DNA from: Acidobacteriota bacterium
GTDB lineage: Bacteria > Acidobacteriota > Thermoanaerobaculia > Gp7-AA8
Assembly (NCBI GenBank): GCA_003223645.1
Contig: QHVT01000010.1
Location: 124,001-188,000, forward strand
Reading direction: 5' to 3'
DNA length: 64,000 nucleotides
Shown here piece after piece: positions 7,514 to 38,314 of this stretch (positions are counted from its first letter, which is position 1; each line of letters starts with the position of its first letter). The notes below the pieces were generated by a model. That model saw only the letters and a list, made by a program, of their open reading frames with translations. It was not told where the DNA came from and did no database searches. A program made the translations under genes and the position numbers.

Positions 7514-7525
7514 CACCGCCGTCCC

Positions 7526-9775
7526 GTGCGGTCTCTCAAATTTCTCCTCGTGTGTGCGGTCGCGCTGCCTCTGTGGGCAGGCGAATTCGACATCCACTCC
7601 GCGCCCTCGTGGGTGGAGCGCGTCCCCGTCGACGCGTCGATCAGCGTCGCCAAGGAACACGTGCGCTGGGGCATCTACGACATCCTCACCGATCACCAGG
7701 TGCGCGTCCAGGCCAATACGGAATCGCAGTACTTCCGCACCGTCCGCAAAGTCCTATCTCCGCATGGCGTGCAGAACGCCTCGGAGCTGACGCTCGACTT
7801 CGATCCCGACTTCGAGCACCTCACGATTCACGAGGTCACGCTGCTCCGCAACGGCAAGCGCATCGACGCGATGGATCCGCACGAGATCCGCGTCATCGAC
7901 AAAGAAGAAGAGGCGGACGACAAGATTTACGACGGCGAGCGTAGCGCGCTGGTCATCCTGCGCGACGTGCGACCCGGCGACGTCATCGATTACTCCTGGT
8001 CGCTCGACGGCGTGAACCCGATTCTCAACGGCAAGTACACCGACGAATACGAACTGAGTCGCAGCGTTCCGGCGAAGCGACTCCGTCACCGCCTGCTCTG
8101 GCCGGCCGGACGTCCGCTGCAATGGCGCGGCGCGAATCCCGCGATCGCGACGGTTGGTAGCGAACAGCAATACGTGTGGGAAAAGACAGAAATCGACGCG
8201 CTCAACGTCGAGGACCACACGCCCGCATGGTTCGAGCCGTGGGAGTCCGTGCAGGTGACGGAGTTCGCGTCGTGGAACGAAGTCGCGACGTGGGCAAACG
8301 CGATGTTCCAGCTCGACGCGCGCTCCATCGAAGAAGTGAAAAAACTCGCCGCGAAGATTTACGGCGAGCACGCGACGCGCGACGAGCGCATCACCGCCGC
8401 CATCCGGTTCGTTCAGGACGACATCCGCTACCTCGGCATCGAGATGGGCCGCAACTCGCACGAGCCGCATCAGCCGTGGGAAACGCTCGACACGCGCTGG
8501 GGCGACTGCAAGGACAAAGCGCTGTTGCTCGCGTCGCTCCTCCGCGAGCTCGGACTCGAGGCCTATCCCGCGCTCGTCAACACGACGACGCAGCATCGCC
8601 TCGATGAAAAGTTGCCGTCGCCGTTTCTCTTCGACCACGTGATCGCGCAGGTCATCGACGCCGGCCGCACGTACTGGGTCGACGGCACGTTCGACGACCA
8701 GGGCGGCACGCTGCGCACGCTGGAGACGCCGAACTACGGCCGCGCGCTGGTCGTGCGCCCCGGCACGCACGCGCTCACGAAGCTCGAGACGAACACGAAA
8801 GGCTCGACGTTCGTGCAGCAGACCTACACGACGGCCGACTACAAGAAGCCGGTCACGCTCGAAGTGAAGACGACCTACAGCGGCAGCGACGCCGACGGAT
8901 TTCGCAGCGACCTCGCAGGCATGTCGATCGACGACTTCGCGCACACGCGCATCAACGAGCTGGCCACCGACCAGCCGAAGATCGTCGCGACGCATACGCC
9001 GGTCGTCAAAGACGATCGCCTCCGCAACATCATCGTCGTGACGGAAACGTATCGCGTGTCCGAGCTCTGGAAGGACGGCAACTGGACGTGGTACCCGCGC
9101 ACGACCGAGTCGTATCTGAACAAGCCGGAGACGATGATCCGCACGATGCCGCTGGAGTTCGACTATCCGCTCGACGTGCGCGAGAACGTCACGTTCAATT
9201 TTCCCGAGACCGTTGAAGTCGAGAAGAAGACGACCGTGACGGAGACGCCGACGTTCCGCTACGAGCGCGTCGTCGATCAGAACGGACACGCCGTCACGAT
9301 CCGGCAGTCGCTGCGCGCGCGACGCAACTCCGTCGACGCGAAGGACGTTCCCGATCATCTGACGAAGATGAACGCGATCTGGAGCGAGATCGGCTATCGC
9401 CTCTATCCCGAAGGCGCGCAGCCCGCCGTCACAGAATCGCGCGCGTCGGTCCTCCCCGCAAAGTGGGGCCTCGGCATCTTCATCGTCGGCGCATTCGTCG
9501 GCCTCTCGTGGATGCTCGCCACGCGCCGCCGCCCGCTCATGCCCGCGGCGGCAATCGCGTTCCGTCCCGGAGAAGCGCCCGCGTCCGCGGTGGCGGTCAA
9601 CGGCTCGCACGAGATCAACGCCCACCTTGCCGGCCTCGCCTGCTCCTGCGGCGCGCAGCACTACAACCCGCCCGACGTCCAGCGGGCGCGCTACGCCGAG
9701 CGCGAGATGACGATCGTCACCAGGCAATGCGCGGCGTGCGGACGCGAGCAGAGCGTGTACTTCACGGCGGCGTAG
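7526..9775 (+). CDS. DUF3857/transglutaminase-like exported protein with C-terminal zinc ribbon
   Basis: Large exported protein of 749 residues. A signal peptide (RSLKFLLVCAVALPLWAGE) is followed by a beta-rich DUF3857-type domain, then a transglutaminase-like domain with a plausible triad: C328 in WGDCKDKALLL, H371 in LFDHVIAQV, and D386 in YWVDGTFDD. A beta-sandwich region of the DUF2569/DUF3858 type follows, then a transmembrane helix near residues 650-668 (WGLGIFIVGAFVGLSWML). The tail carries two cysteine pairs (CSC, then CAAC about 40 residues on) that could form a cytoplasmic zinc ribbon. The start is GTG, just after a strong extended -10 box. The catalytic part would be periplasmic, perhaps acting on peptides. 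The role is unknown. Confidence 0.85.
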   Translation: MRSLKFLLVCAVALPLWAGEFDIHSAPSWVERVPVDASISVAKEHVRWGIYDILTDHQVRVQANTESQYFRTVRKVLSPHGVQNASELTLDFDPDFEHLTIHEVTLLRNGKRIDAMDPHEIRVIDKEEEADDKIYDGERSALVILRDVRPGDVIDYSWSLDGVNPILNGKYTDEYELSRSVPAKRLRHRLLWPAGRPLQWRGANPAIATVGSEQQYVWEKTEIDALNVEDHTPAWFEPWESVQVTEFASWNEVATWANAMFQLDARSIEEVKKLAAKIYGEHATRDERITAAIRFVQDDIRYLGIEMGRNSHEPHQPWETLDTRWGDCKDKALLLASLLRELGLEAYPALVNTTTQHRLDEKLPSPFLFDHVIAQVIDAGRTYWVDGTFDDQGGTLRTLETPNYGRALVVRPGTHALTKLETNTKGSTFVQQTYTTADYKKPVTLEVKTTYSGSDADGFRSDLAGMSIDDFAHTRINELATDQPKIVATHTPVVKDDRLRNIIVVTETYRVSELWKDGNWTWYPRTTESYLNKPETMIRTMPLEFDYPLDVRENVTFNFPETVEVEKKTTVTETPTFRYERVVDQNGHAVTIRQSLRARRNSVDAKDVPDHLTKMNAIWSEIGYRLYPEGAQPAVTESRASVLPAKWGLGIFIVGAFVGLSWMLATRRRPLMPAAAIAFRPGEAPASAVAVNGSHEINAHLAGLACSCGAQHYNPPDVQRARYAEREMTIVTRQCAACGREQSVYFTAA

Positions 9776-9905
9776 CCGCCACGGGCGGCTGCGTGGATTG
9801 CTCTGCCTTGCGGCATGCTTGTCGCCACGTCACGATCTGCGGCTTCGAGCGGCGCAACGCGCCTGAGATCGTCGTTTCTGCCGCGCAGACTCCTAACCTC
9901 TCCAA

Positions 9906-9953
9906 TCACGACGAACTGTGGAGCGGCGGCCGCCGCTCCACAGTTCGTCGTGA
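9906..9953. repeat. 48-bp perfect palindrome between convergent genes
   Basis: Bases 9906-9929 are the exact reverse complement of 9930-9953, with no spacer. The centre (GTGGAGCGGCGG and its mirror) is the core of the repeat family found at 6813-6873 and 18006-18083. The outer arms (TCACGACGAACT) are not shared with those copies. It lies between the stops of two convergent genes and could form a very strong hairpin. The rest of the 200-bp gap shows no gene. Confidence 0.9.
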
Positions 9954-9976
9954 AGAACAAACCGGGAGGACGAAGC

Positions 9977-11272
9977 TCATCTCCTCATCAGCTTCCGGCT
10001 CGATCCATCCTCTAACTTCACGAACTTCGGCACGTCCCCATCCGCGATCCGCATCTTCACCGCGCGCACTTCGCCCATGCCGTGCTCGGGGATCACGTAT
10101 GCGCTCGCCGCGTTGCGCGCCCAGGCGTACGTCACCGTCGCCGGCGTGACGACGACGTTCGGCGTGTTCAGCGTCTGATCGACGATCCCGCCGTCCGCGC
10201 CGCGCGATTCGGCCGACCAGCCGTCGTGCGTTTTTCGGAAACGCGCGCGCGTCACAGTCGCACGCATGTGCGCATCGATGGTCCCGCGGCTCGTCACCTC
10301 AACGAACTCCGGCGACGCCCAGGTCTCGATTGACGTGCCGTCGCGTTTGCGGATCACGCTGTGGATGATTTTTTCATACACTTCGAACTGCTCCGTTCCT
10401 TCGACGCGATGCCGCGCGTTGCGCAGCAGGTACGTTCCGGTGGTTTTCAATGAGCCGCGCTCGTGGCGTCCCGGATGCGGCTTCGGCGTGCCGTTGACGA
10501 TGTCGACGATGTCTTCTTCGACCGTCGCGCCCGCGGGCGTTTCGACGAACCGTCCGACCTCGACCATTGAATTGACGCCTCCCGGCGTCGGCCCTTTGCG
10601 CACGATCACCGTCGGCACGTTGGTGATGTTCTCGCCCTGCACGACATCCATCGGCGTCGTGAAGTCGGGGCCGACGCCGATCAACTCGACGGTCAGATTC
10701 GGGTTCGCCGCTCTCGCGATCGACTTCAGCAATCGCGGCACGTGCTGCCGGCTGTCGCCGCACCACGTCGCCATCACGATCTGCAACCGCACCGGCGTGT
10801 CGATCTTCCGCAGCCGCTCGATCATCGCCGGATCGGGCTCGTACGTCTCGTTGATCGCGTGCCACGTCGGCGCGGTCTGCCACAACTCCTCGATCGTCAT
10901 CGGTCCGGCCTTCGACTGGTGCGCCGTGACGAGCAGCGTCTTGCCGTCCAGCGTCGCGAGGTACGTCGAGTCCGTCGCCTTCACCACGCTTCCTGCGTGC
11001 GCGCCTTTCGGCTCCGCCGCGCTCGTCGCGGTCATGTGATCGGCGCTGATCACAAACTCCGACTTCGGCATGCTCGACACTTCCGTCGACTGCGGATCGA
11101 AATACACGACATGATCGCCGCAGACGATCGCGAACATGCGCGGCGACGTCGTGACCAGCGTCTGCGCGCCGCGATCCAGTTTCCCGTTGACGTAGACATC
11201 GCGAATGCTGTCCCGCCATTCGCGCGGAGCGGTGGAAAGAACCGTGGCCATGAGGATGAAAGCGAGGCGCAT
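9977..11272 (-). CDS. exported thioredoxin-fold protein
   Basis: 431-residue secreted protein. The start is placed at 11272, where ATG follows AAGGAG at good spacing and opens a short signal peptide (MRLAFILMATVLSTA). The longer reading from 11374 would begin in non-coding sequence. The central domain has a thioredoxin-like fold with the WCGDSRQHVPRL motif in place of WCGPC, which keeps one resolving-type cysteine. It is followed by VPTVIVRKG, the cis-proline region. The N-terminal ~150 residues and the C-terminal ~150 residues are beta-rich and not recognised. Similar single-cysteine WCxDS proteins are thiol-handling or structural members of the superfamily. The substrate is unknown. Confidence 0.75.
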   Translation of the reverse strand: MRLAFILMATVLSTAPREWRDSIRDVYVNGKLDRGAQTLVTTSPRMFAIVCGDHVVYFDPQSTEVSSMPKSEFVISADHMTATSAAEPKGAHAGSVVKATDSTYLATLDGKTLLVTAHQSKAGPMTIEELWQTAPTWHAINETYEPDPAMIERLRKIDTPVRLQIVMATWCGDSRQHVPRLLKSIARAANPNLTVELIGVGPDFTTPMDVVQGENITNVPTVIVRKGPTPGGVNSMVEVGRFVETPAGATVEEDIVDIVNGTPKPHPGRHERGSLKTTGTYLLRNARHRVEGTEQFEVYEKIIHSVIRKRDGTSIETWASPEFVEVTSRGTIDAHMRATVTRARFRKTHDGWSAESRGADGGIVDQTLNTPNVVVTPATVTYAWARNAASAYVIPEHGMGEVRAVKMRIADGDVPKFVKLEDGSSRKLMRR

Positions 11273-11424
11273 CGGGGTGGCTCCTTTTCGTTTTGCGGAT
11301 GGGACGCGGCGGTTCCAAATGAAGTTTCGCTCTTGAAATTTATTTGCGAAGACGGCATGTTGCGTTCGGCACAACGTCTGTATTTGGAAACGGGAAATCG
11401 GATACCAGCAAGGAGATCTCGGAG

Positions 11425-11628
11425 ATGCGCAGCACCGGTAAAGTCAAGTGGTTCAACGACGCTAAGGGCTTTGGTTTCATCACGATGGAAGGCGGCGAAG
11501 ACGTGTTCGTACACTTCTCGTCGATTCAGTCGAAAGGCTTCCGCTCGCTTCCTGAAGGAGCAGCGGTCGAGTTCGACCTCGTGCAGGGACCGAAGGGACT
11601 GCAGGCGTCCAACGTGACGACGTTCTGA
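11425..11628 (+). CDS. cold-shock protein (CspA family)
   Basis: Single-stranded nucleic-acid-binding beta-barrel protein of 67 residues that can melt RNA structure during cold or stress. Both RNA-binding motifs are present: KGFGFITM (RNP1) and DVFVHFSSI (RNP2). The start at 11425 matches the family N-terminus ([12 protein letters not shown]) and follows AAGGAG at 9 nt. It has a leader of up to about 150 nt from the divergent gene, a length at which cold-shock genes often carry thermosensing structure, although I cannot demonstrate one. A strong intrinsic terminator follows. Confidence 0.95.
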
Positions 11629-11654
11629 TCGACGAATCAACAACAAACCGACGG

Positions 11655-21655: not shown

Positions 21656-23881
21656 TTACTGCGAACCGGTTGCCAGCAGATTCCTGCGAATGAACTCCAA
21701 AACCGTCTTCTGCAAGTGCGCGATCGTCTTCTTGTCCGTCACGCTGTGCCTCGTCCGCGGGTACATCATCAGCTCGAACGTTTTCCCCTCGCGCTGCAGC
21801 TCGTAGGCGAACTGATACGTGTTCTGCGCGTGGACGTTGTCGTCCGTGGTTCCGTGGATCAACAACAACCGGCCGTGCAAATTCTTGGCGGCGAAACGCG
21901 GCGAGCTTTTGCGATAGCCGTCGGGGTTGTTCTGCGGCATGAGCATATAGCGCTCGGTGTAGATGCTGTCGTAGTCGCGCCAGTCGGCGACCGTGCCGCC
22001 GGCGATGCCGGCCGAGAACATCGTGCTGTGCGTCAGCGCGTAGCTGACCATGAAGCCGCCGTAGCTCCACCCCTGCAGCATCACGCGGTTGCCGTTGACG
22101 TACGGCTGTGACTTGAGCCAGGTGATGCCGTCCTCGATGTCGCGCAGCTCCAGTTCGCCGAAATTCTTGTAGACCGGCCACGCCGACACCGCGCCTTTGC
22201 CGCTCCCCGTGCGGTTGTCGCATAGCCAGACGATCACGCCCTGCTGCGCGAGGAAGTAGTGGAACAGCCCGCGCGTCGACGACTTGTCCCACGCGTTCTT
22301 CACCATCGGCGCGTGCGGGCCGGCGTAGAGCGGCTGATAGACGGGATACTTTTTCGCCGGATCGAAATTCGCCGGCTTGATGATCATCGCTTCCATCGGG
22401 AAGCCGTCGCGCGTCTTCACCTGCAAGAGCTCCGCGCGCGGAAGGTTATACGCAGCCAGCGCCGCGACTTTGTTCTCGTCCACGACGTGCGCGAGCTTGC
22501 CGGCGGAGTCGTACACGCGCACCTGATCGGGCGTACGCAGATCGCTCCACTTGTCGGCGTAGCGCGTGAGCGACGGATTGAACGTCGCCGCGTGCGTCCC
22601 TTCCTGCGACGACAGCCGCTCGAATCCGCTGCCGTCGAGTCTCACGCGATCGACGTCCTGTCCGATCGCGCTGCGCTCGGTCGACGAAAAGTAAACATAC
22701 GTACCATCGCTGCCGTAGAGGTCGTGCACTTCCCAGTCGCCGCTCGTGAGCTGCTTCTCGAGCGTGCCGTCGTTTTTGTAGCGATAGATGTGGCGCCATC
22801 CGCTGCGCTCGCTCTGCCAGAGAAACGAGCCGTCCTTCAGCCAAACCGGATTCGCGATGGGATCGACCCATGTCTTCGTCGTCTCGTGAATGACGGTGGA
22901 GGACAGGCAATCCTGCCTGTCCCGGACAGGCGAGATCGCCTGTCTCCCACAATCCGCGAACACGAGATCGAGCCACGTCTGCTCGCGGTTCTGCACCTGA
23001 TAGCTGAGCGTGTCGCCGTTCCAGGCGACGTTGACGATCAGGAACTCGCCGGACGAATAGCGCTCGTTGTCGATCGCCGTCGCCTTGCCGCCGCTCGCCG
23101 GCACGACGAACAGCTTCGCGCGCGGATTCGGATCGCCGGCCCTCGGATAGTCGTAGACCTTCACGTCGAGGGGATACGGGATGTGATCGACGATCGTGAA
23201 CTCCGGCACCGGACCCTCGTCGAGCTGCAGAAACGCAATGCGCGACGAATCGGGACTCCACCAATAGCCCTTGAAGATCCCGCGGCCGTACACCTCTTCC
23301 TGATAGACGTAGTCGAGCTTCCCGTTGAGAAGCTGCGCGTTGCCATCGGTCGTGAGCTGGCGCTCGCGGCCGGCGAGGTCGACGACGAACAAGTTGTTCG
23401 CGCGAATGAACGCGATTCGTTTCCCGTCCGGACTGAACGTCGCTTCCTCTTCCTTCCCCGCCGTCGACGTCACACGCGTCACGCTGTTGCGGCCGAGGTC
23501 GTAGAGATACAGGTCGTCGGCGAGATCGAGAACGATCGCGCTCTTCTTCGCATCGAACTTCAGGTCATCGAGCTCCGTCGCCGACTTCGCGACGTCCGCC
23601 GAGAGTCCCGCATCCTGCAACGCGCGCTGCAGCTTCGCCTTGTCGAAGAACGGCCGCGACTTGCCGGTGGCAGTGTCGAAGAGACGCCACTCCACGAGAT
23701 CGCCCTTCTCATCCGTCTTCGGCCAGACGAACGTCGAGTCATCGATCCACTCGAACCCGCTCTGGATCGCGCCGCTGAAGTACACGCGCTGCGTCGGGTC
23801 ATACAGCGCATCGAACGTGATCTCTTTTTTCTGCGCGAGGAGAGGAAGAGCTACGAGAAGCAGAAGGAGGAGTCTGCGCAT
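21656..23881 (-). CDS. dipeptidyl peptidase IV-like S9 serine peptidase
   Basis: Exported 741-residue prolyl-oligopeptidase-family enzyme (S9B) that removes X-Pro or X-Ala dipeptides from peptide N-termini. A signal peptide (MRRLLLLLLVALPLLAQ) is followed by an eight-bladed propeller region and the alpha/beta-hydrolase domain with nucleophile S606 in GWSYGGFM, aspartate in IHGTTDDNVH and histidine in RTRHSV. The start at 23881 opens on the signal peptide; a longer reading enters an upstream repeat. Between the strands LDLVFAD and VIHETTKTWVD there is an in-frame insert encoded by a palindromic element (22896-22950). It adds about 18 residues that family members are not expected to have. Confidence 0.92.
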   Translation of the reverse strand: MRRLLLLLLVALPLLAQKKEITFDALYDPTQRVYFSGAIQSGFEWIDDSTFVWPKTDEKGDLVEWRLFDTATGKSRPFFDKAKLQRALQDAGLSADVAKSATELDDLKFDAKKSAIVLDLADDLYLYDLGRNSVTRVTSTAGKEEEATFSPDGKRIAFIRANNLFVVDLAGRERQLTTDGNAQLLNGKLDYVYQEEVYGRGIFKGYWWSPDSSRIAFLQLDEGPVPEFTIVDHIPYPLDVKVYDYPRAGDPNPRAKLFVVPASGGKATAIDNERYSSGEFLIVNVAWNGDTLSYQVQNREQTWLDLVFADCGRQAISPVRDRQDCLSSTVIHETTKTWVDPIANPVWLKDGSFLWQSERSGWRHIYRYKNDGTLEKQLTSGDWEVHDLYGSDGTYVYFSSTERSAIGQDVDRVRLDGSGFERLSSQEGTHAATFNPSLTRYADKWSDLRTPDQVRVYDSAGKLAHVVDENKVAALAAYNLPRAELLQVKTRDGFPMEAMIIKPANFDPAKKYPVYQPLYAGPHAPMVKNAWDKSSTRGLFHYFLAQQGVIVWLCDNRTGSGKGAVSAWPVYKNFGELELRDIEDGITWLKSQPYVNGNRVMLQGWSYGGFMVSYALTHSTMFSAGIAGGTVADWRDYDSIYTERYMLMPQNNPDGYRKSSPRFAAKNLHGRLLLIHGTTDDNVHAQNTYQFAYELQREGKTFELMMYPRTRHSVTDKKTIAHLQKTVLEFIRRNLLATGSQ
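22896..22950. repeat. Palindromic element inside the DPP IV coding sequence
   Basis: The arms 22896-22922 and 22924-22950 match at 22 of 27 positions as reverse complements (GTGGAGGACAGGC and GCCTGTCTCCCAC). The reading frame stays open through the element and encodes a Cys/Arg-rich stretch (CGRQAISPVRDRQDC). It resembles the element inside the M1 aminopeptidase gene, with the same GACAGGC/GCCTGTC words. Confidence 0.88.
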
Positions 23882-23888
23882 GGCGCGC

Positions 23889-24030
23889 GGGACTCTAGCA
23901 GAACGCGACTGCACGCCTGTGCTCCCGCGCCCGCGCCCGTGCCCGCTCCCGTGCCCCGGGCGGGTGGCGAGCGAAGCGACAGAACCCACCCACCCCGGGC
24001 GCGGGAGCGGGCACGGGCGCGGGAGCGGGC
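23889..24030. repeat. CGCGCCCG-array inverted repeat, copy 3, with conserved flank
   Basis: The inverted array spans 23921-24030, with a core in reverse orientation (GGCGAGCGAAGCGACAGAAC). To its left, bases about 23889-23916 (beginning GACTCTAGCAGAACGCGACT) are identical to the left flank of copy 4 at about 32480-32507. The unit is therefore larger than the palindrome alone. It lies in the divergent gap between DPP IV and the phosphatase gene. Confidence 0.85.
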
Positions 24031-24134
24031 GGCGGGTACACGTCGGAACGCCGCCGTCTTCGGCGGCTGGCCCGGCGGCGTCCTCGCGGACGCGTGTAGG
24101 CGCATAATCATGCACATACTCACAAAAGTTTGAT

Positions 24135-25427
24135 ATGCCGCACCAGGACGATCTTGCCGCGCTGCGCCGGGAGAACGATCGGCTCCGCCGCGCCGTGCAG
24201 GAGCTCTCGACGCTGAACGATCTCTCGCGCGCGATCGGTGCCTCTCTGCGATCGGACGAAGTGATGCAGACGATCATCAATCGCTCGCTCAAGGCGGTCA
24301 ACGCGGAGCAGGGGGTCGTCACGCTTTTCGATCGGCGTGATGGAGATCGCGTCGACGCGAACACGCTCGTGCGCGCGAACGAGAGCAGCATCGGCGCCCC
24401 GCGCTCGTTTCACGCGACGCAGGCGATCCTCGGCTGGATGCAACTCAACAAACGGCCGCTCGCGATCGCCGACACGGCCGCGGATCAGCGTTTCAGCGGA
24501 GTTGCATGGGACGAAAACATCCGTTCGCTCCTTTGCGTGCCGCTGCTCATCAAATCGCAATTGACGGGCGTCCTGGCGGTCTACAACAAGAAAAACGGCC
24601 GGCAGTTCGACGCCGATGACGAGCGCCTGCTCGCGATCATCGCAACGCAGTCCGCGCAGATCGTCGACAACGCGCGCCTGTACGAAGAAGAGAAGGCGCT
24701 GTCGGCGATGCGCGAGCAGGTCCGCCTCACCGCGCAGATCCACGCGCATCTTCTGCCGCGCGCGAATCCGTCGATCGAGGGATATGAAGTCGCCGGACAC
24801 AGCGTCGCCGCGCAGGACATGGGCGGCGACTACTTCGACTACAACGCGCTGCCGAACGGCGCGTGGTCGATCTCCGTCGGCGACGTCTCGGGCAAGGGAC
24901 TTCCCGCCTCCCTCCTGATGGCGAACGTGCAGGGAGTGATTCGTTTGCTGTCGTCCCTGAACGTGCCGCCGGCAGAAGTGATGAGCCGCGCGAATGCGCT
25001 GCTCTGCCGCAGCACGCCGCAGGAGAAATTCGTGACGTTCTTCTACTCGACGCTCGATCCGTCGAGTCACGCGTTGACGTTCTGCAACGCCGGCCATACG
25101 CCGACGTTCCACTTCCATCGCGACGGCATCGCGCGCCTCGTCACCGGCGGCGCCGTTCTCGGCATGCTCGAGACATTTGCCTATCGACAGGACTCGGTGA
25201 CGCTGGACCGCGGAGACGTCGTCGTCATCTATTCGGACGGCGTGACCGACGCGATGGATGCGGACGAGCGCGAGTTCGGCGAGCAGAGATTGCTGGACGT
25301 CGTAGACGGACGTCGAGACGAGTCCGCATCCTCCATTCTCGACACGCTGCTCGAAGCCGTGCGACACCACCAGCATCAACAGCCGCAGTACGACGACATC
25401 ACTGCCGTCGTCCTCAAACGCACATGA
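24135..25427 (+). CDS. GAF-SpoIIE (PP2C-type) phosphatase, RsbU-like
   Basis: Cytoplasmic 430-residue signalling phosphatase. A short N-terminal coiled coil (LAALRRENDRLRRAVQEL) leads into a GAF sensor domain (about residues 30-190). A linker helix and a SpoIIE/PP2C domain follow, with metal-binding motifs MGGDYFDY, VGDVSGKGLPASLLM, FCNAGHTP and VVVIYSDGVTDAMD. Enzymes of this type dephosphorylate anti-sigma antagonist proteins or other Ser/Thr phosphoproteins. Its TGA overlaps the ATG of the kinase gene (ATGA), so a phosphatase and a kinase are made together, probably acting on the same pathway. Confidence 0.93.
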   Translation: MPHQDDLAALRRENDRLRRAVQELSTLNDLSRAIGASLRSDEVMQTIINRSLKAVNAEQGVVTLFDRRDGDRVDANTLVRANESSIGAPRSFHATQAILGWMQLNKRPLAIADTAADQRFSGVAWDENIRSLLCVPLLIKSQLTGVLAVYNKKNGRQFDADDERLLAIIATQSAQIVDNARLYEEEKALSAMREQVRLTAQIHAHLLPRANPSIEGYEVAGHSVAAQDMGGDYFDYNALPNGAWSISVGDVSGKGLPASLLMANVQGVIRLLSSLNVPPAEVMSRANALLCRSTPQEKFVTFFYSTLDPSSHALTFCNAGHTPTFHFHRDGIARLVTGGAVLGMLETFAYRQDSVTLDRGDVVVIYSDGVTDAMDADEREFGEQRLLDVVDGRRDESASSILDTLLEAVRHHQHQQPQYDDITAVVLKRT

Positions 25428-28400
25428 TCGGGCGCACACTGGGCCACTACCGCGTCACCGATCGCCTCGGCGAGGGCGGGATGGGCGTCGTCTATCGCGC
25501 CGAGGATTTGAAACTCGGACGAATCGTCGCGCTGAAGTTCCTGCCACCTGAGCTGACGCGCGATCCCGAGTCGAAGAAGCGCTTCGAGCGCGAGGCGAAG
25601 GCCGCCTCGCAGCTCGATCATCCGAACATCTGCACGATCCTCGACTTCGGCGAGAGCGAAGACGACGGGCAGATGTACCTGGCGATGCCGTGCTACGACG
25701 GCGAGTCGCTCGCGCAGCGCGTGGAGCATGGTCCGATGCCGCTCGCCGAGGCAGCCAGGATCATCGAGCAGATCGCGCGGGGACTGGGGAAAGCGCACGC
25801 CAACGGCATCGTTCATCGCGACATCAAGCCGGACAACGTGATGGTGACGCGCGACGGCGTCGCGAAGATCCTCGACTTCGGTCTGGCCAAGCTCCAGCTG
25901 GCGTCGCGCATCACCAAGACGAATACGACCGTCGGCACCGCGGCGTACATGCCCCCCGAACAAATCCGCGGAGAAAACGTCGGACCGCAGGCCGACATCT
26001 GGTCCCTCGGCATCGTCTTCTTCGAACTGCTGACCGGCCGGCTGCCGTTCCGCGGCGAGTACATCGAAGCGCTCGCGTACGCGATCCTTAATGAACAGCC
26101 GGAGAGCATCCCCGAACATCCGGACGCCGATCGCATCATCAAGCGGATGCTGCGCAAGGATCCGCTGCAGCGTTACCAGACCATCGACGAATTCCTCGCG
26201 GACCTGCTCGAGCGGAAACGCTCGCGCGTCGATAAACATCAGCTCCCGAACGGCGCGCGACTCGGGCCGTATGAAATCGTGAAGCCGGTCTCGACGAGCG
26301 TCTTTCTCGCGAAAGACACACGCCTCGCTCGTGAAGTCGCGATCAAAGTTCTGCCGCCCGAGTTTCCGGAGATCGATCGCTTCCGCCGCGACGCGAAAGC
26401 GATCTCGCACCTGACGCATCTGAATGTCTGCACGCTCTTCGACGTCGGCGAGCAGGAAGGCGTCGATTACGTGGTGATGGAGTTTCTCGAGGGCGAGACG
26501 CTCGCGCAGAAGAAGACTCCGCTGCCGGTTGCGCAGGTGCTGAAGATCGGGATGCAGATCGCCGACGGCCTCGCGGCCGCGCACAAACACGGAGTCGTGC
26601 ATCGCGACCTGCGGCTTGCGAACGTGATGATCACGAAGTCGGGTGTCGCGAAGCTGCTCGACTTTGGACTCGCACGCGACGCGGGCGCGTACCTCTCGCC
26701 GGAGCAGATCGAAGGAAAAGAAGCCGACTCGCGCGCCGACATCTTCGCGCTCGGCCTCCTGCTGTACGAGCTCGCCACCGGCCGCCCGCCCTTCAACGCC
26801 GCGAGCAAAGCGGGGCTCATGGCCGCGATCCTCGAGCACGACGCCGCGCCGCTTCGACAAATCCGTTCCGCGATTCCGCCCGCGCTCGATCGCTTGATCC
26901 GCACCTGCCTCGAGAAAAATCCCGACGACCGCTTCTCGTCCGCGCACGACGTGATGCTGGAACTGCGAGCGATGATGGAGACACCGTCGGTCGTTCGTAA
27001 ACGCGTTCCGTACGGCGCGATCGCGGCGGTGCTCGTCATCGCCGCGATCGGATACGCGCTCTATCGCTTCGGCGGCACGCGTGCCGTCGCTCCGCGTCCG
27101 CGCACGTTCACGCAGCTCACGTTCACGGAAGGGCTCAACACGTTCCCGACGATCGCGCCCGACGGAAAGTCGATCGCGTACGTTTCGGCGCAGTCGGGAC
27201 AACGCGACATCTACATCCAGCGCGTCGACGGACGGACGGCCGTCAATCTCACGAACGACTCGCCCTACGACGACTCCGAGCCCGCGTTTTCGTTCGACGG
27301 ATCACAGATCGCGTTTCGGTCCGAGCGCGACGGAGGCGGCATCTTCATCATGGGCGTCACCGGCGAGTCGGTGCGGAGGCTGACGGATTTCGGGCATAAC
27401 CCGACTTGGTCGCCGGACGGAATGCGCATCGCGGTCTCGACGGCCGGAGTCGAAGTGAAGCCGCACATGCGCACCGTCGTGCCGGGCGAGCTGTGGCTGA
27501 TCGACACACGAACCGGCGAAAAGAAGCCGCTCACTCAGCATGGAAGCGGCGGCCCCGACTTCGGACGCGACAGCGATGCCGTGCAGCCGAGCTGGTCGCC
27601 GCACGGCAAGCGGATCGCGTTCTGGGGAATCTCCGATCAGCAATGGACGCGCGATCTCTGGACGATCGATCCCGATGCGCCCGAGCCGAAGCGGACGGTC
27701 GTGCGCGTGACCTCCGATCCCGCGCTGGATTGGAATCCCGTCTGGTCGCCGGACGGGAAGTATCTCTACTTCGGCAGCAATCGCGACGGAACGCTGAACC
27801 TCTGGCGGATCGCAATCGATGAAACGAAGGGAATGCCGGCGGGAGCGCCTGAGCCGCTGTCGCTGCCCGCGCCGCTGGCCGCCAATTTCAGTTTCTCGCG
27901 CGACGGCGACCTCGCCTACGTTGCGATGACGCGCTCGCACCGCCTGCTGGCATTACCGATCGATGCGAACAACACGCGCATGGGGTCGCCGCGGCCGCTG
28001 TTCGGCACCTCGCAGGAGATCGCGAGCTTTCAACCGTCGTCCGATGGGCAGATGATCGCGTTCATGACCGTCAGCGGCGCGAGCGAGAATCTGTTCGTCG
28101 CCAATCCGGACGGCAGCCGTTTGCGGCGGCTGACGAACGATGCCGTCAAAGATCGCGCGGTGATCTGGTCGCCCGACGACAAGACGCTCTACTTCTATTC
28201 GAATCGCGATGGTCCGTATCACATCTGGAGCATCCGAGCCGACGGCAGCAGCCTCGCGCGTGTGACCGACGACGCGGATCTGCAGCGTCACGGCCTCCGC
28301 GATCTCTATTTGTCGGATGTCTCGCCCGATGGACGGACGCTCGTCGCGCTCGGCGAGCGCTCGATCGCACTCGTACACCTCGACCGGCCGATCGCGAGTC

Positions 28401-28789
28401 GCGTCGAGGCGCTGCCGGTCATCATGGACGGACCGAGGTTCTCGCCGGATGGAAAATGGCTCGCCGGGTTCAGCATCGATCCGGATACCGCGCCCGCGGG
28501 CATCACGCTCTACTCATTGCAAACCGGACGTCACGAACTGTTGCTGGACCACGGCATCACGCCGTTGTGGCTTCCCGATGGAAGGCACCTGATTTTTTTC
28601 GAAGCGCAGAGCATCGGGATCCTGGACATCGCGACTCGCCGCGTGGCCATGCTGCCGTTCACGCCGTTGACGGGAGTCGACTTCAGGCTATTCCGTCCGT
28701 TCGTGTCCGCCGACGGCTCCACGCTGTACATCCGCCAGACTCTGGAGCAAGGCAACGTATGGATCGCCGCTTTCAAAAGTGAGCGGTAG
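25424..28789 (+). CDS. tandem Ser/Thr kinase-pseudokinase with TolB-like beta-propeller
   Basis: 1121-residue membrane protein. The first kinase domain (residues about 8-265) is complete: LGEGGMGVVY loop, VALKFLPPE lysine, H131-R-D133-I-K-P-D-N138, DFG at D151 and an APE-like PPEQ. The second (about 285-515) keeps VAIKVLPPEF and DFG but lacks a glycine-rich loop (PVSTSVFLAKD), has HRDLRLAN (R397 instead of the catalytic-loop Lys) and a very short activation segment, so it is probably a pseudokinase or regulatory domain. A transmembrane helix (AIAAVLVIAAIGYALYRF) near residue 530 is followed by repeated SPDGK-type WD40/TolB blades, presumably periplasmic. The start at 25424 is fixed by the ATGA overlap with the phosphatase gene. 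Confidence 0.93.
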   Translation: MIGRTLGHYRVTDRLGEGGMGVVYRAEDLKLGRIVALKFLPPELTRDPESKKRFEREAKAASQLDHPNICTILDFGESEDDGQMYLAMPCYDGESLAQRVEHGPMPLAEAARIIEQIARGLGKAHANGIVHRDIKPDNVMVTRDGVAKILDFGLAKLQLASRITKTNTTVGTAAYMPPEQIRGENVGPQADIWSLGIVFFELLTGRLPFRGEYIEALAYAILNEQPESIPEHPDADRIIKRMLRKDPLQRYQTIDEFLADLLERKRSRVDKHQLPNGARLGPYEIVKPVSTSVFLAKDTRLAREVAIKVLPPEFPEIDRFRRDAKAISHLTHLNVCTLFDVGEQEGVDYVVMEFLEGETLAQKKTPLPVAQVLKIGMQIADGLAAAHKHGVVHRDLRLANVMITKSGVAKLLDFGLARDAGAYLSPEQIEGKEADSRADIFALGLLLYELATGRPPFNAASKAGLMAAILEHDAAPLRQIRSAIPPALDRLIRTCLEKNPDDRFSSAHDVMLELRAMMETPSVVRKRVPYGAIAAVLVIAAIGYALYRFGGTRAVAPRPRTFTQLTFTEGLNTFPTIAPDGKSIAYVSAQSGQRDIYIQRVDGRTAVNLTNDSPYDDSEPAFSFDGSQIAFRSERDGGGIFIMGVTGESVRRLTDFGHNPTWSPDGMRIAVSTAGVEVKPHMRTVVPGELWLIDTRTGEKKPLTQHGSGGPDFGRDSDAVQPSWSPHGKRIAFWGISDQQWTRDLWTIDPDAPEPKRTVVRVTSDPALDWNPVWSPDGKYLYFGSNRDGTLNLWRIAIDETKGMPAGAPEPLSLPAPLAANFSFSRDGDLAYVAMTRSHRLLALPIDANNTRMGSPRPLFGTSQEIASFQPSSDGQMIAFMTVSGASENLFVANPDGSRLRRLTNDAVKDRAVIWSPDDKTLYFYSNRDGPYHIWSIRADGSSLARVTDDADLQRHGLRDLYLSDVSPDGRTLVALGERSIALVHLDRPIASRVEALPVIMDGPRFSPDGKWLAGFSIDPDTAPAGITLYSLQTGRHELLLDHGITPLWLPDGRHLIFFEAQSIGILDIATRRVAMLPFTPLTGVDFRLFRPFVSADGSTLYIRQTLEQGNVWIAAFKSER

Positions 28790-28856
28790 GTTTTTCACCG
28801 CACCAGACACTCCTTAGATGAGGGCTTCCGGTCCGTACCCGAACAAAGGAGTGGTG

Positions 28857-29117
28857 ATGGCAAAGATCAGAGATCTGGGAATCAGTTTCATTCCCGAGGC
28901 CAGACAGCCGGAGCACGCCGGTGTCTTCGCCGCGGGTAAAAAGAAGCCGCCGCCTTGCTACGGCGTATCGTGTGAAAAATCGCAATGTCCCACCGCCGCA
29001 ACCGGCGGCAATAAAAAGCCGGCGGAGAAGAAAAAGAAAACGATCTCCCGCAACGCAGTCGAGCAGCTCCACGCTCAAATGCAGCAGAAGATCGCGCGGA
29101 TGGAGCTCACGAAATAG
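28857..29117 (+). CDS. small Cys-containing peptide, candidate RiPP (lanthipeptide-like) precursor
   Basis: 86-residue peptide that starts at an ATG with AAAGGAG just upstream (28846-28852). The N-terminal part (MAKIRDLGISFIPEARQPEH) looks like a leader. A central segment, residues 31-50 (PPPCYGVSCEKSQCPTAATG), carries C34, C39 and C44 with S38, S42, T46 and T49, the residues needed for thioether rings. A strongly basic stretch (KKPAEKKKKT) follows, then a C-terminal helix (NAVEQLHAQMQQKIARMEL). A core in the middle, not at the end, is unusual. Its TAG shares one base with the GTG of the HopA1-like gene, which ties it to the modification enzymes. The assignment rests mainly on context. Confidence 0.72.
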   Translation: MAKIRDLGISFIPEARQPEHAGVFAAGKKKPPPCYGVSCEKSQCPTAATGGNKKPAEKKKKTISRNAVEQLHAQMQQKIARMELTK

Positions 29118-30202
29118 TGGCGGGGCCGGAAGCCCACGTCCGCGCGAGCCCGTTCGTCGAGCTCAAACGACTCGCCGGCCTCGACGCCGCACAGCGCGCG
29201 CAGTTCGCGGAGCTGGAAAGCGATCCGAATTTCTACGGCCTCTTCATTCCAAAGCCTCCGCTCACGACGAATCTGAAAGCGGTCGAACGCGAAACCGCCG
29301 AGCTCTTTCTTTCGCTGGCAATCCCGTCGCGCGTATTGGTTGACGATCACATCATCGATCTCGTGCTCGACGGCGTTCTCGAGATCGAAAGCGACGGCGA
29401 ATTCGTTTGTGGCGCTGACGCCGTCTCCATCCTCTGCGATCCGATCTCATCGACGGCGACTCGTGGACTCTCGCGTGATGCGCTCCTGCACGCGCAGGAT
29501 CTCGAGTTGAGCGACGCGCGGGAATTGACGTTCGCGCTCTACCTCTACAACCGCATCCCGCTCACGCCGTTCTGGAAAGCGCGCTTCCCGAATCCCGCCG
29601 CCATCCTCGCCCACCTCGGCGCCGATCGCCTCGCCGGTCATTGGGCCGCGGGCCGGCACGATCACTGGCTCAGTTGGTCGAGAACGACGTCGCACGACGC
29701 CAGCGCCGTCACGTACAAGCTCTACGTCAGTCCGCGCCCTGAACGGATCCGCGACGCGTTCGACGCCGTCGTGCGCGTGCTCGCCGAAGTTCCGGAGACG
29801 GCGTTCAAGATCGGCGACAGCGCGGCCGGTCTTCTCCGTCCCGACAAGCTCGTCCTTTACTTCACGACGCGCGAGCAGCTCGACGAAGTCGCGGATGCAC
29901 TGCGCCGCGAGCTGTCCGGCTGCGACGCGCACGGCGTTCCCTTCACCGCCGGCCTCGATGACAGCGGTCTCCTTTCGTGGGGCATCGATCCGCCCGACAA
30001 CGATCGCCCGCTGCGCTGGCTCGACTCGGAGAGCTGGCGTCTCTGGATCGCGCAGCGCCTCGGTGCCGCGCTGTCGGTCGCCGCGTTGGCGCGCAGCGCA
30101 TCGGCGATCGAGCCGTGGCGCTTCGCCGTCGAGCGCGTCCGCCGCGCGGGCGTCGACGTCGACACGTGGACTCCCTCGCCTCGCCTCTGGAGCCGCGCGT
30201 GA
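29117..30202 (+). CDS. HopA1-like protein, candidate phospho-Ser/Thr lyase of the RiPP locus
   Basis: 361-residue cytoplasmic protein. The N-terminal half is helical (FVELKRLAGLDAAQRAQFAE). The C-terminal half, from about residue 195, resembles the HopA1 effector family used as the lyase (LanY/LxmY-type) in class V lanthipeptide clusters: YKLYVSPRPERIRDAF, FKIGDSAAGLLRPDKLVLYF, HGVPFTAGLDDSGLLSWGID. The lysines in FKIG and RPDK are candidate catalytic residues. I recognise this from memory of the family and cannot score it. GTG at 29117 overlaps the stop of the precursor (TAGTG), and its own TGA overlaps the GTG of the kinase-cyclase (GTGA). It could supply the elimination step that class III/IV synthetases carry in their own N-terminal domain. 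Confidence 0.68.
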   Translation: MAGPEAHVRASPFVELKRLAGLDAAQRAQFAELESDPNFYGLFIPKPPLTTNLKAVERETAELFLSLAIPSRVLVDDHIIDLVLDGVLEIESDGEFVCGADAVSILCDPISSTATRGLSRDALLHAQDLELSDARELTFALYLYNRIPLTPFWKARFPNPAAILAHLGADRLAGHWAAGRHDHWLSWSRTTSHDASAVTYKLYVSPRPERIRDAFDAVVRVLAEVPETAFKIGDSAAGLLRPDKLVLYFTTREQLDEVADALRRELSGCDAHGVPFTAGLDDSGLLSWGIDPPDNDRPLRWLDSESWRLWIAQRLGAALSVAALARSASAIEPWRFAVERVRRAGVDVDTWTPSPRLWSRA

Positions 30203-32440
30203 ACATCACCGCGCCGTTCGTGCTGCAGGACGATGTCGTCCTCATCCCCTGCGCCGACTTGAGCGACGACATGCGCGGACGCATCTCGTTCGACGAGGGC
30301 GACTTCACGCTGTCGCGCCGTCACGGCCGCGCGCTGACGCAAGTCATCGACGGAGAGACGGCCGCGTTGCTCTCGCGCTTCCGCGAGCCGTGCACCATCG
30401 TCGACGCGGTGTTCGAGAACAGCCGCTCCTTCGGCAGGGATGCGAAGACGTCGCTCGACGAGGTCCTGCCGCATCTCGAGACCTTTCTCGACCATCGCGT
30501 CCTCGTGCCGGCGGGCTCCAAGCACGAAACGTCGATCCGGCCGCGCTACGACACCGGGACGACGATCGGCGGATGGGAGATCGTCCGCTGCGCGAGCCTG
30601 ATCGAAGACACGGAGATCTATCAGCTGCGCAAGGGAAGCGAAGTCGCCGCGTTGAAGATCGCGCGCACGCGCGACGTGCGTCCGCTCTTCGACAACGAGG
30701 CGTCGGTGCTGCGTCATCTCGACGGCAGCGGCATCGCGCCGCGCCTCATCGATTCCGGCGAGCATGAGAAGCGGCCTTATCTCATTCTGGAATGGGCAAA
30801 CGGCGTCGAAGCGTCCGTGGCCGCGGCGCAGCGCCGCTGCGACCGCACCGCGCTGATCGAGATCTGCGCGTCGATCGCGGCGGCGTACGCGACGTTGCAC
30901 GCACGCGGCGTGCTGCATGCCGACGTGCATCCGCGAAACGTCATCGTGGGCGAAAAGGTGCTGCTCCTCGACTTCGGCTACTCGCGCGTCGCAGACCGCC
31001 CGCCGGTCGTCGGCCGCGCCGGCGTCAACTACTTCTTCGAACCGGAGTATCCCACCGTCGAAGCGTCTCCGCGCGGCGAGCAGTACGCGATCGCGGCGCT
31101 GCTCTATCTGCTCCTCGCCGGCGATCACTATCTCGACTTCCGTCTCGAACGCGAGGAGATGGCGCGGCAGATCGCGAACGATCCGCCGCTGCCGTTCGCG
31201 AAGCGCGGCATTCCGCCGTGGCCCGACGTGGAAGCGATTCTCTTCCGCGCGCTCGAAAAACATCCCGAGCGGCGACACGTGTCGGTCGAAGAGCTGGCAG
31301 CGCTGCTCGCCGGGGCGCGCGACGTTGCGGCGGCGGAGTCGCTGGCAACACCGGTGTCGCAGGAGGCAAAGACGTTTCTCGAGTCGACGCTGCAATCGTT
31401 CGCGCGCCGCGGCGCGATGTTCCGTTCGCGCTATCCGCGGGCGCCGAAGGCATCGATCAACTTCGGCTGCGCGGGCGCGGCGGCGGGGATGCTTCGCATT
31501 GCCGAGGCGCGCGGCGATCCCGCGCTGCTCGCGCTGTCGAGAGTCTGGTGCGCGCGCGCGACGTCGCTCGTCGGCGATGACGGCGCGTTCTACAGCGACG
31601 AAGGCAACCTGTCGCGCGAGTCGATCGGCGACGTCACCCCGTATCACACCGAGTCCGGCGTCCACGCCGCGCGCGCGATGATTGCCGCCGCGAGCGGCAT
31701 CCACACGGACGATGCCGTCGACGCATTTCTCGCCGCTTCGCGCAAGCCATGCGCGGAGCTCGATCTCACCCTCGGCCGTTCCGGCAGCCTGCTGGCCGCG
31801 TCGATGCTGCTCGCGCTCGGCGAGCACGAAGAGCTGCGCGCGTTCGGAACGGAGACTAAACACGCGATCTGGAGCACGCTGCGTGATCGTCCCTCCATCG
31901 ACGGCTCCCTCGGCATGGCCCACGGCTGGACCGGTTATCTCTACGCCGCGCTGCGCTGGTGCGCCGCGTCGGGCGATGCGCTGCCGTCATCGCTGATCGA
32001 GCGGCTTCACGAGCTTGCGTCTCTGAAGATCGTCGAAGGCCGCGGTGCGTATTGGCCGTCGTGGGAAGCAATGACCGCCAGCTGGTGCAACGGCAGTGCG
32101 GGCCAGGTCTTCCTCTTCGCGCTCGCACATCGATTGTTCGGCGACGCGCAGTGGCTGCAGCTCGCGGAGCTCGCGGCATGGCACGCGTGGGACGAGCCGC
32201 GCGCCAACGCGAGCCTCTGCTGCGGCACCGCCGGCCGCGCCTACGCGCTGCTCAATCTCTACAAACAGAGCGGCGCAAAAGAATGGCTGAGCCGCGCGCG
32301 CCAGCTCGCGAACGACGCCGCGCGCGCGGCATCGGATACCGCGGAGCGACCGAACGCGCTGTGGAAGGGAGAGCTCGGCGTCGCCGTGCTCATCGCCGAT
32401 CTCGCCTCGCCCGAAAACGCGCGAATGCCATTTTTCGAAT

Positions 32441-32442
<2 letters not shown>
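30199..32442 (+). CDS. RRE-like/kinase/LanC-like fusion, lanthipeptide synthetase candidate
   Basis: 747-residue protein, start GTG at 30199 (GTGA overlap). Residues 1-115 look like a PqqD-like peptide-recognition domain (FTLSRRHGRALTQVIDG, then FREPCTIVDAVF and FLDHRVLVPAG). Residues about 120-370 form a protein kinase with the catalytic loop H240-A-D242-V-H-P-R-N247 and D258-F-G. Residues about 390-745 form a LanC-like alpha/alpha toroid: GRSGSLLA, GMAHGWTG (H575), SWCNGSAGQ (C630) and LCCGTAGRAY (C674, C675). The usual zinc ligands are Cys, Cys and His; here all three would be cysteines, as in the ProcM-type clade. It would phosphorylate Ser/Thr of the peptide and close thioether rings. 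No OspF/SpvC-type lyase domain is seen. Confidence 0.85.
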
Positions 32443-32631
<189 letters not shown>

Positions 32632-35701: not shown

Positions 35702-38314
35702 GTGAAACGCGCCTTTTTCGCTTCGCTCCTCCTCCTCTTCTTCGCCGTCACCCTCGCCGCGCAAACAGTCCGCCTCGGCAATGACGTCGTTCCGCTCGCG
35801 CAGAGCATCGTGCTCGATGCCGATCCGCGCAAAGACGACTACAGCGGTTCGACGACCGTCGACGTGCAGGTGAAGAAGCCGGTGACGTCGTTTCTCATTC
35901 ATGCGGTCGATCTGACGGCGAACACGATCACGCTCGACGACATCGCGCTGGCGCAGGCGAAGGGACAGGATGGAACGTTGCAGCTCACCGCGCCCGCGCC
36001 GCTCACCGCCGGCAAGCACGTTCTGAAAATCGCGTTCACGAACAAGTTCAACCGCCAGTCGGTCGGCCTCTACAAAGTCATCTCGAAAGGCGAGCCGTAT
36101 CTCTTCACGCAGCTCGAAGCGATCGACGCGCGGCGCGCGTTTCCGTGCTGGGACGAGCCGGGATTCAAGATTCCTTACCGCCTTACCGTCACGATTCCCG
36201 ACTTCGATGACGCGGTGTCGAACACGCCGATCGCGTCGGAGTTGAAAGCGAACGGCACGAAGACGCTTCGCTTCGCGCAAACGAAGCCGCTGCCGTCGTA
36301 TCTCATCGCGCTCGCCGTCGGACAGTTCGACTTCACGCCGATCAACGGCATGAGCGTTCCGGGCCGTGTCGTCGCACCGAAGGGACAAGGCAGGCTGGCC
36401 GCGTACACGGCGCAGATCACGCCGCCGATCGTCGCGGCCCTCGAGAAGTACTTCAACGGAAAGTATCCGTTCGAGAAACTCGATCTCATCGCCGTTCCCG
36501 AATTCTGGGCCGGCGCGATGGAGAATCCCGGCGCGATCACGTATCGCGACACGGTCCTGCTCCTCGACTCCGCCACCGCGACGCCGACGCAGAAGCAAAC
36601 CGACGCCAAGATCACGGCGCACGAGCTCTCGCACATGTGGTTCGGCGATCTCGTGACGATGGAGTGGTGGGACGACTTCTGGCTCAACGAGTCGTTCGCC
36701 GACTGGATGGGCGACAAGATCACCGACGTGGCGTTCCCCGAATTCGAGACCGGCATCTCGGAGCTCGACACGATCGGGGCGATCATGAACCTCGACGCGC
36801 GTCCCGCGACCGCGCCGATTCGCAAGCGCAACGCGACTCCGGCCGACGCGATCGCGAACGTCGGCATCGCCTACAACAAAGGCAAAGCCGTGCTGTCGAT
36901 GTTCGAGAATTGGGTCGGCCGCGAGAAGTTCCGGCAGGGCGTGCTCGATTACCTCGAGGCCAACGCGTGGGGCAACGGCAACGAGTCCGAATTCTTCGCC
37001 GCCGTCAGCAAACACGCGCCGAAAGGCTTCGCGCCGGCGATGGAGAGTTTTCTCAATCAGCCCGGCATTCCGCTCGTGACGGTGGAGCTCACCGGCCCGA
37101 ACGAGATTCGTCTCTCGCAATCGCGCTTCTCGACCTCGGAGGCAACGCCGGAGACGTGGCAGATTCCGGTATCGATCCGCTACCCCGGCGGCACGACATC
37201 GGTCCTCCTCGACGCGCCATCGAAGACCATCAAGCTCGACTCCGGTGTAGGACAGGCTTTCCAGCCTGTCCCCCGGGCGCAGGTTGGAAAACCTGCTCCA
37301 CACCAAGTCCCGAAACTCACTTGGGTGTTCCCGCAGGCGAACGCCTTCGGCTACTACCGCTGGAAGATGCCGCTGGACGCGATGTCGAAGCTCGCCGAGG
37401 AGAGCGCGAGCGTGCTGACGCCGGCGGAGCGGCTCGCGTTCGCGGGCAATCTCACTGCGCTGTTCCGCAACGGCACGATTCACGGCGACGCGTTCCTCGG
37501 TCTCTTCGCGCATCTCACCAACGATCCCGATCCGAACGTCCTCTCCGCGCTCCTCGGCGATCTCGATCTGATCCACAACGCGTTCGAGAGCGACGCCACG
37601 CATCCGCTGCTCAGCGCGTACGTGCGCAAAACCTTCGGTCCCGCGCTCGATCGCGTCGGCTTCGAGCCGAAGGCGGGAGAGCCGCAGACAGTGACGATCG
37701 TCCGTCCGCAACTCATCCGCACGCTCGCGCTCTACGGCGACGACGAACGCGTCTGGTCCTTCGTACGCGAGCGCCTGCCGAAGTTTCTCGCCGATCCGTC
37801 CTCCGTCCATCCGACACTCGCCAGCACCGTGATTACCCTCGGCGCAGTCCACGGCGACGAAGCGCTCTTCAACGAATACAAGCGGAGGTTCGAAGCAGCC
37901 GTCAATCCCGGCGAGCGCACGCGCTACGTCACCGCACTCGGACGCTTCACCGACCCGCAGCTGCGCAGCCGCGCGCTCGAATACGGACTCACCGAGGCCG
38001 TCCGCGCGAACGAGCTCGCCGCGCTATGGGGCACGACCAGCCTCGCCACGTCGAAGGAGCGCGACGAATTCTTCGACTGGGTCCTCGCCCACTTCGACGC
38101 CATCACCAAACGCCTCCCGCCCGCCTTCGCCGGCAGCCTCGCGAGCGCCGCCAACGGCTGCGAGCCCGAGCGCGTCGCCAAAATGCGCCAGTTCTTCGCC
38201 AGCCGGAACCTCGAAGGCACCGGCCGCGCGCTCACGAGAGTCACCGAGCAGGTGAACGAATGCGCGGCGCTGCGCGCGCGGGAGATGGATGCGGTGGCGC
38301 GGGCGCTGCGATGA
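35702..38314 (+). CDS. M1 family zinc aminopeptidase
   Basis: Exported 870-residue gluzincin aminopeptidase. A signal peptide ([20 protein letters not shown]) precedes the N-terminal beta domain. The exopeptidase motif is GAMENPG, the zinc site is H307-E-L-S-H311 with E330 in [10 protein letters not shown], and the catalytic tyrosine is probably in [13 protein letters not shown]. The C-terminal ERAP1-like helical domain is complete. The start is GTG at 35702. At residues about 515-534 the frame passes through a palindromic element (37245-37303) that encodes [19 protein letters not shown], placed between the beta-sandwich linker and the helical domain. M1 enzymes trim peptide N-termini. One class III lanthipeptide leader peptidase is of this type, but this copy may simply be a general peptidase. 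Confidence 0.94.
37245..37303. repeat. Palindromic element inside the M1 aminopeptidase gene
   Basis: The left arm GTGTAGGACAGGCTTTCCAG pairs with the right arm that ends AACCTGCTCCACAC, around CCCCCGGGCG. It stays in frame. The intergenic relative at 61165-61265 has the same plan (GTGTAG...TTTTCCAACC...GGCTGGAAAGCC...CCACAC). Confidence 0.9.

Follow-up and report, generated by a model that had tools for sequence, protein, structure and literature searches.

A three-gene locus in an Acidobacteriota genome

Three consecutive genes in a 64,000-nt stretch of the 6.38-Mb genome of an Acidobacteriota bacterium (assembly GCA_003223645.1, contig QHVT01000010.1, positions 124,001 to 188,000; hereafter, the window) encode a small Cys-containing peptide (P0001), a predicted lyase (P0002) and a kinase–LanC fusion (P0003). 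All lie on the plus strand, P0001 and P0002 overlapping by 1 nt (TAGTG) and P0002 and P0003 by 4 nt (GTGA). We read them as a system for lanthipeptide maturation whose enzyme layout is undescribed, at a probability of about 0.86, the chemistry being deduced from computation. Genes and domains are listed below; RRE denotes the recognition element of ribosomally synthesized and post-translationally modified peptides (RiPPs), and HMM a hidden Markov model.

28847..28851, + strand: Shine-Dalgarno-like AGGAG immediately 5' of the P0001 ATG (from the sequence)
28857..29117, + strand: P0001, precursor peptide, 86 aa, 3 Cys (leave-out leader and tail HMMs)
28857..28910, + strand: P0001 leader, MAKIRDLGISFIPEARQP (family consensus M.FKVKDLMI..LP, here MAKIRDLGISFIP)
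28956..29003, + strand: P0001 putative core, residues 34–49, CYGVSCEKSQCPTAAT, between conserved leader and tail (family comparison)
29040..29114, + strand: P0001 C-terminal helical tail ('follower'), residues 62–86, TISRNAVEQLHAQMQQKIARMELTK (tail HMM)
29117..30202, + strand: P0002, predicted free-standing phosphoSer/Thr lyase (LanY/HopA1-like), 361 aa (AlphaFold and Foldseek)
29117..29386, + strand: P0002 N-terminal RRE-like domain, residues 1–90 (hhalign against the P0003 RRE)
29459..30199, + strand: P0002 lyase domain, residues 115–361 (alignment of 22)
30199..32442, + strand: P0003, RRE–kinase–LanC fusion, 747 aa (Pfam, NCBIfam, alignment)
30199..30534, + strand: P0003 RRE domain, residues 1–112 (AlphaFold pLDDT 84.3; Foldseek)
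30535..31398, + strand: P0003 PknB/LanL-type protein kinase domain (PF00069, E 7e-15; alignment)
31411..32439, + strand: P0003 LanC cyclase domain (PF05147, E 4e-24; alignment)

The same genome carries a paralogue of the whole locus (G000:C44), with ~52% identity for the lyase and ~52% for the kinase–LanC protein. Its precursor is 263 aa long, has several CTDCTTQQFSICGTSP-type repeats and is overlapped by the lyase start as ATGA. The three-gene locus is confirmed as an observation, and its arrangement goes beyond chance because of this paralogue and of 20 loci in public genomes in which the two enzymes adjoin.

A protein kinase fused to a zinc-type LanC cyclase

The kinase domain of P0003 matched PF00069 more strongly than the APH family (E 7e-15 versus 5e-9) and is fused to LanC; no APH gene was found near P0003 among the window genes. 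Its catalytic residues (K153, E167, H240 and D242 of HxD, N247, and D258 and G260 of DFG) are invariant in 18 of 18 sequences. The LanC His (H575) and zinc ligands (C630, C674 and C675, in WCNG and CCG motifs) are kept in 16 of 18 and lost only in two Nitrosomonas loci. The LanC Pfam match covers 98–348 of 350 in the window protein and 7–349 in the C44 paralogue. All 18 full-length kinase–LanC proteins matched the class IV LanL model NF038150 (best 1.6e-51), which was the strongest lanthipeptide model overall for this set; P0003 itself scored 135 bits against a curated cut-off of 650.

A free-standing lyase with a predicted phosphoSer/Thr lyase fold

We modelled P0002 with AlphaFold using 22 homologues (pLDDT 89.4, predicted template modelling score 0.87). 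The best 25 Foldseek matches in the PDB were all phosphoSer/phosphoThr lyases or synthetases containing such a lyase, led by LxmY (9dk3, E 1.3e-7) and followed by CuvL, HopA1 (4rsx), SalKC, ThurKC, PneKC, SpvC and OspF. Searching PDB sequences with the alignment of lyases, and scanning viral contigs with P0002, returned no matches. Nine residues (K201, Y203, S205, K231, R241, D243, K244, D291 and R308) are invariant in all 22 lyases, and Y248 is kept in 21.

Putative active-site roles were taken from the residue assignments in CaoY (PMC9486802) and ThurKC (PMC10604976). By motif, K201 would be the counterpart of SpvC K104 and ThurKC K65 (Arg187 in CaoY), K231 that of SpvC K136, ThurKC K94 and CaoY K219, R241 and Y248 those of CaoY R229 and Y236, and K244 that of ThurKC K117. 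Tyr203 resembles the 'RVYF' motifs of LanY-type enzymes. P0002 thus combines the predicted fold and the candidate Lys base (K231) of HopA1/OspF-type lyases.

Two related recognition domains

Residues 1–112 of P0003 adopt a PqqD-like β-strand/three-helix fold in the predicted model, and Foldseek retrieved PqqD (best, E 2.4e-3), TigE, MibB, leader-bound TbiB1 and ThcOx; Pfam and PDB sequence-profile searches with this segment gave no match. The N-terminus of P0002 aligned to this domain by hhalign (probability 80%, E 1.3e-5, score 35.7), against at most 18.5 for 40 column shuffles, 13.1 for the reversed profile and 11–19 for the lyase C-domain, kinase and LanC. By this profile comparison, the lyase N-terminal domain is homologous to the P0003 RRE. 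It is missing from the short lyases of four loci (L029, L030, L031 and L032).

The family shares with RRE/PqqD-like RiPP domains both the fold and the N-terminal fusion to modifying enzymes. The main text of RRE-Finder names, among others, fusions to LanB, dehydrogenase, glycosyltransferase and GST; LanC and LanKC are absent from it (PMC7470986). On a Cupriavidus plasmid, a gene directly after the lyase (L055, 8894–10057, + strand) fuses the family RRE to a 2-oxoglutarate (2OG)-Fe(II) oxygenase (PF13640, E 3e-12). Weak RRE matches in two other genomes (G030 and G068, E ~5e-5) were 748-aa proteins with no adjoining lyase and, by eye, HAD-phosphatase-like motifs and no kinase; we excluded them from the family.

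A precursor family with conserved leader and tail

Leader and tail HMMs were built without the window and without the C44 paralogue and searched against 982 six-frame window segments. P0001 ranked first with both (leader, E 0.013, runner-up 0.85; tail, E 0.074, runner-up 0.87) and is therefore a true member of the precursor family. Members consist of the consensus leader, a variable Cys/Ser/Thr core with 3–33 Cys and a coiled-coil-like tail, and the family has no match in Pfam, NCBIfam or PHROGs. P0001 is its shortest and simplest form, with 3 Cys, 2 Ser and 2 Thr in the putative core; relatives reach 282 aa. By inspection and HMM, about 25 of the 27 testable loci have the precursor directly 5' of the lyase, the exceptions being L032 and L058; some leaders are divergent.

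Three precursors stand out in form. On a Paenibacillus peoriae plasmid (L054, 6951–7760), the entire leader–core–tail unit is repeated in tandem. The core at L020 (448–1146) holds 33 Cys, in runs like CTACSACTAGCSACTACTACSACTA. An in-frame stop just 5' of tail-like sequence at L027 (6383–6694) reflects either tail loss or an assembly error.

Distribution and co-inheritance of the enzyme pair

Beyond the window, the family comprises at least 26 loci in at least nine phyla, two of them on plasmids, that keep lyase then kinase–LanC, usually preceded by a precursor. Scanning genome_contigs once yielded 20 loci, which the database records assign to Acidobacteriota, Armatimonadota, Gemmatimonadota, Chloroflexota, Eremiobacterota, Actinomycetota, Verrucomicrobiota and Pseudomonadota; L012 (G069) and L032 are the same contig. 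Paenibacillus (Bacillota) and Cupriavidus came from plasmids, and the family turned up in a further four Acidobacteriota genomes.

In every relative, as in the window, the lyase has a gene of its own, and kinase–LanC follows it in all 20 genome_contigs loci, some of which are clipped by contig ends. From lyase stop to kinase start, the distance is −46 to +24 nt in 21 of 22 loci (window and C44 included); one gene is inserted at L014. Across 396 Acidobacteriota genomes, all seven lyase copies (in six genomes) adjoin an RRE–kinase gene. Lyase and kinase divergence correlated at r = 0.91 over 18 loci and 0.83 over 14 non-redundant loci, and none of 5,000 permutations was as high. In Cupriavidus (L055), the intact kinase–LanC gene is on the opposite strand.

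Two Nitrosomonas genomes keep the lyase, RRE and kinase and have lost the WCNG, CCG and His motifs of LanC. Their kinase proteins with decayed LanC (L030, 7474–9576; L031, 7624–9726) are paired with a precursor that has a single Cys. Such loss of ring-forming parts in both enzyme and precursor fits a lanthionine model, and these genomes possibly represent a ring-free dehydropeptide branch.

A proposed pathway

Predicted domain folds, active-site conservation, the operon, family membership and co-inheritance were established computationally, and from these we infer a route. The P0001 leader would be held by two related RREs, at the N-termini of P0003 and P0002. The P0003 kinase would phosphorylate core Ser/Thr with ATP, and the P0002 lyase would eliminate phosphate to give dehydroalanine or dehydrobutyrine. 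By analogy with SpvC, CaoY and ThurKC, K231 may act as general base, K201 may activate the carbonyl or hold the phosphate, and R241 and K244 may stabilize the leaving group. The zinc LanC of P0003 would then add Cys thiols to form (methyl)lanthionine rings. P0002 and P0003 may form a complex, as do the LxmKY and CaoKY heterodimers (PMC12141560, PMC9486802).

Comparison with described lanthipeptide classes

None of the six lanthipeptide classes described so far accommodates the layout of P0002 and P0003; classes III/IV, V and VI each fail on a tested feature. Class III LanKC enzymes (ThurKC, PneKC, SalKC) have related lyase and kinase folds, a Lys at the K65 position and the FK base, but are single chains with a LanC lacking zinc ligands and with RRE-free leader binding (PMC10604976), whereas here the zinc ligands are present and the lyase is separate. 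Class VI (Streptococcus LanKCb) is likewise kinase-centred and acts on a short peptide, but joins the kinase to a truncated lyase and cyclase in one synthetase (PMC10676316), whereas here the domains are full-length and split.

Class IV LanL (VenL, CuvL; NF038150) comes closer, with a PknB-type kinase followed by a zinc LanC in one chain, as in P0003 (C630, C674, C675, H575). In class IV, however, the lyase is part of the same polypeptide, whereas the chain of this family has no lyase domain, starts with an RRE, scores far below the model cut-off and is paired with a different precursor family, most members of which exceed the 120-aa limit of genome mining (PMC7268733). That a LanL broke up in this lineage, its lyase domain becoming a separate gene, seems to us quite improbable: the shared preference of all 18 fusions for the LanL model and the retained zinc site speak for it, but so low a score for P0003, a lyase fold that matches class V LxmY ahead of CuvL, and a layout kept in nine phyla with its own precursors do not, and splitting a gene would not by itself supply two RREs, one to each half. 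Class V (cacaoidin CaoK/CaoY, lexapeptide LxmK/LxmY) offers the free-standing HopA1-like lyase, matched by P0002 well in fold, LxmY being its closest solved structure, and weakly in sequence, with equivalent Lys, Arg and Tyr motif positions, among them R241 and Y248 (PMC9486802). One could therefore picture a class V system in which the kinase–LanC fusion replaced the APH kinase. We consider this unlikely, as the defining separate LanK of the APH family is missing, its place taken by a PF00069 kinase fused to LanC; no LanD/F420 partners recur; the family lyase has an RRE-like domain and, at K201, a Lys like LanKC rather than the Arg of CaoY (R187); and class V-type operons elsewhere in the same genome have clearly different lyases.

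Two further alternatives concern the product and the substrate. The enzymes might dehydrate P0001, or only phosphorylate it, lanthionine not being the physiological product; the modified precursor could, for example, serve in signalling or as a structural protein. The length of some precursors (up to 282 aa), the lack of a dedicated transporter or protease nearby and the Nitrosomonas variant without a working cyclase point that way; the LanC zinc and His motifs kept in 16 of 18 proteins alongside cores with 3–33 Cys point the other way, and we hold the idea to be unlikely. It is very improbable that P0001 is a fortuitous reading frame and the enzymes act on another peptide: it is short, has no repeats and contains only 3 Cys, but two independent models ranked it first of 982, its gene overlaps that of the lyase and has a ribosome site, and it occupies the same position as its relatives.

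Several observations weigh against a lanthipeptide system as proposed here. By Pfam, P0002 matched only RamC_N (E 0.0016; 18.4 bits against a curated cut-off of 27). It did not match PF17914 (HopA1), which 3 of 22 lyase homologues did (best E 7.6e-4). When the lyase family was compared by hhalign with three LanY sequences and one LanKC sequence, positions aligned as expected with LanY, but scores equalled those of an unrelated control, and the alignment was therefore not used as proof of lyase identity. Because the profiles fall below cut-off and hhalign stays at control level, the lyase call comes mainly from the predicted fold. The catalytic His of SpvC and LanKC (ThurKC H67) is replaced by Tyr203, and E-values for the P0003 RRE are modest. 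No transporter or leader peptidase linked to the module was found among recurrent neighbours; across family loci, no transporter, protease or tailoring gene recurs, and only the precursor family does. Finally, the Nitrosomonas correlation between cyclase and Cys is one evolutionary event.

Most of the components had been proposed in an earlier note on this DNA. The gene coordinates and the one- to four-base overlaps that it gave are exact, its small Cys-containing peptide belongs to the precursor family, and its HopA1-like reading of the 361-aa protein is borne out by the structural matches to LxmY, CuvL, HopA1 and SpvC. The RRE-like domain it saw in the fusion was recovered by Foldseek, although sequence profiles missed it, the kinase and zinc LanC have conserved catalytic and zinc residues, and the neighbourhood survey it suggested found the genes together. 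Those of its refuting conditions that computation could address did not refute its reading, which is supported overall. The note missed the lyase RRE-like domain and the helical tail of the precursor. Its statement that class V lacks a zinc LanC is not general, as the Vb subgroup uses LanC (PMC12328550). It had suggested an intermediate or distinct class; the layout matches none of the described classes, but with a kinase of PknB/LanL type (PF00069), not the class V APH type, it is better called a mosaic than a simple intermediate.

Neighbouring genes and other loci in the genome

Directly upstream of the locus (24863–28789) is a Ser/Thr kinase plus PD40 propeller protein, and similar genes flank L018 and L022; these are possibly regulatory, possibly no more than common in Acidobacteriota. 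By eye, a DPP-IV-like S9 peptidase (21656–24391, − strand) and an M1-type aminopeptidase (35702–38314, + strand) lie near the locus. S9-type enzymes cleave off leaders in some class III systems, and a related gene occurs near L028; this is a weak lead. Between P0003 and the next gene is a G+C-rich imperfect inverted repeat (32511–32629); stretches near 23.9 kb and 35.6 kb resemble it and have the look of repetitive extragenic palindromes.

Elsewhere in the genome, a class V-type operon (L010, G000:C10:1000-16000, minus strand, 6886–11636) contains a 457-aa Cys-rich repetitive candidate precursor with many PTL.G.TCP..C units, an APH kinase, HopA1/LanY and LanC, and adjoins a papain-like peptidase gene. 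At L011 (G000:C1, 5167–8429, + strand), an APH kinase is followed by a HopA1–LanC fusion (PF17914, 3e-42; PF05147, 6e-55), which is another packaging of lanthipeptide enzymes.

Implications

Lanthipeptide classes are defined by how kinase, lyase and cyclase activities are packaged, and the packaging of this family is absent from classes I–VI. We found no description of it in the open-access literature; as most subscription papers and preprints lay outside that search, priority is uncertain. With more reserve than for the maturation system itself, we lean towards a seventh, phylum-crossing class: an RRE–lyase and an RRE–kinase–LanC would capture one precursor through two homologous RREs, the core lying between leader and helical tail, with the RRE also lent to tailoring enzymes (the Cupriavidus 2OG-Fe(II) oxygenase) and a cyclase-dead Nitrosomonas branch making ringless dehydrated peptides.

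The family spans nine phyla, its hosts being for the most part uncultured bacteria of soil and water. Current tools miss it because kinase and LanC are labelled class III/IV, the lyase is a 'hypothetical protein' and most precursors are longer than the 120-aa mining cut-off. With just two proteins, the system is a tractable one in which to ask how RREs direct separate enzymes to a single substrate and how HopA1-type lyases entered RiPP pathways, and its numerous cores are very rich in Cys, with as many as 33.

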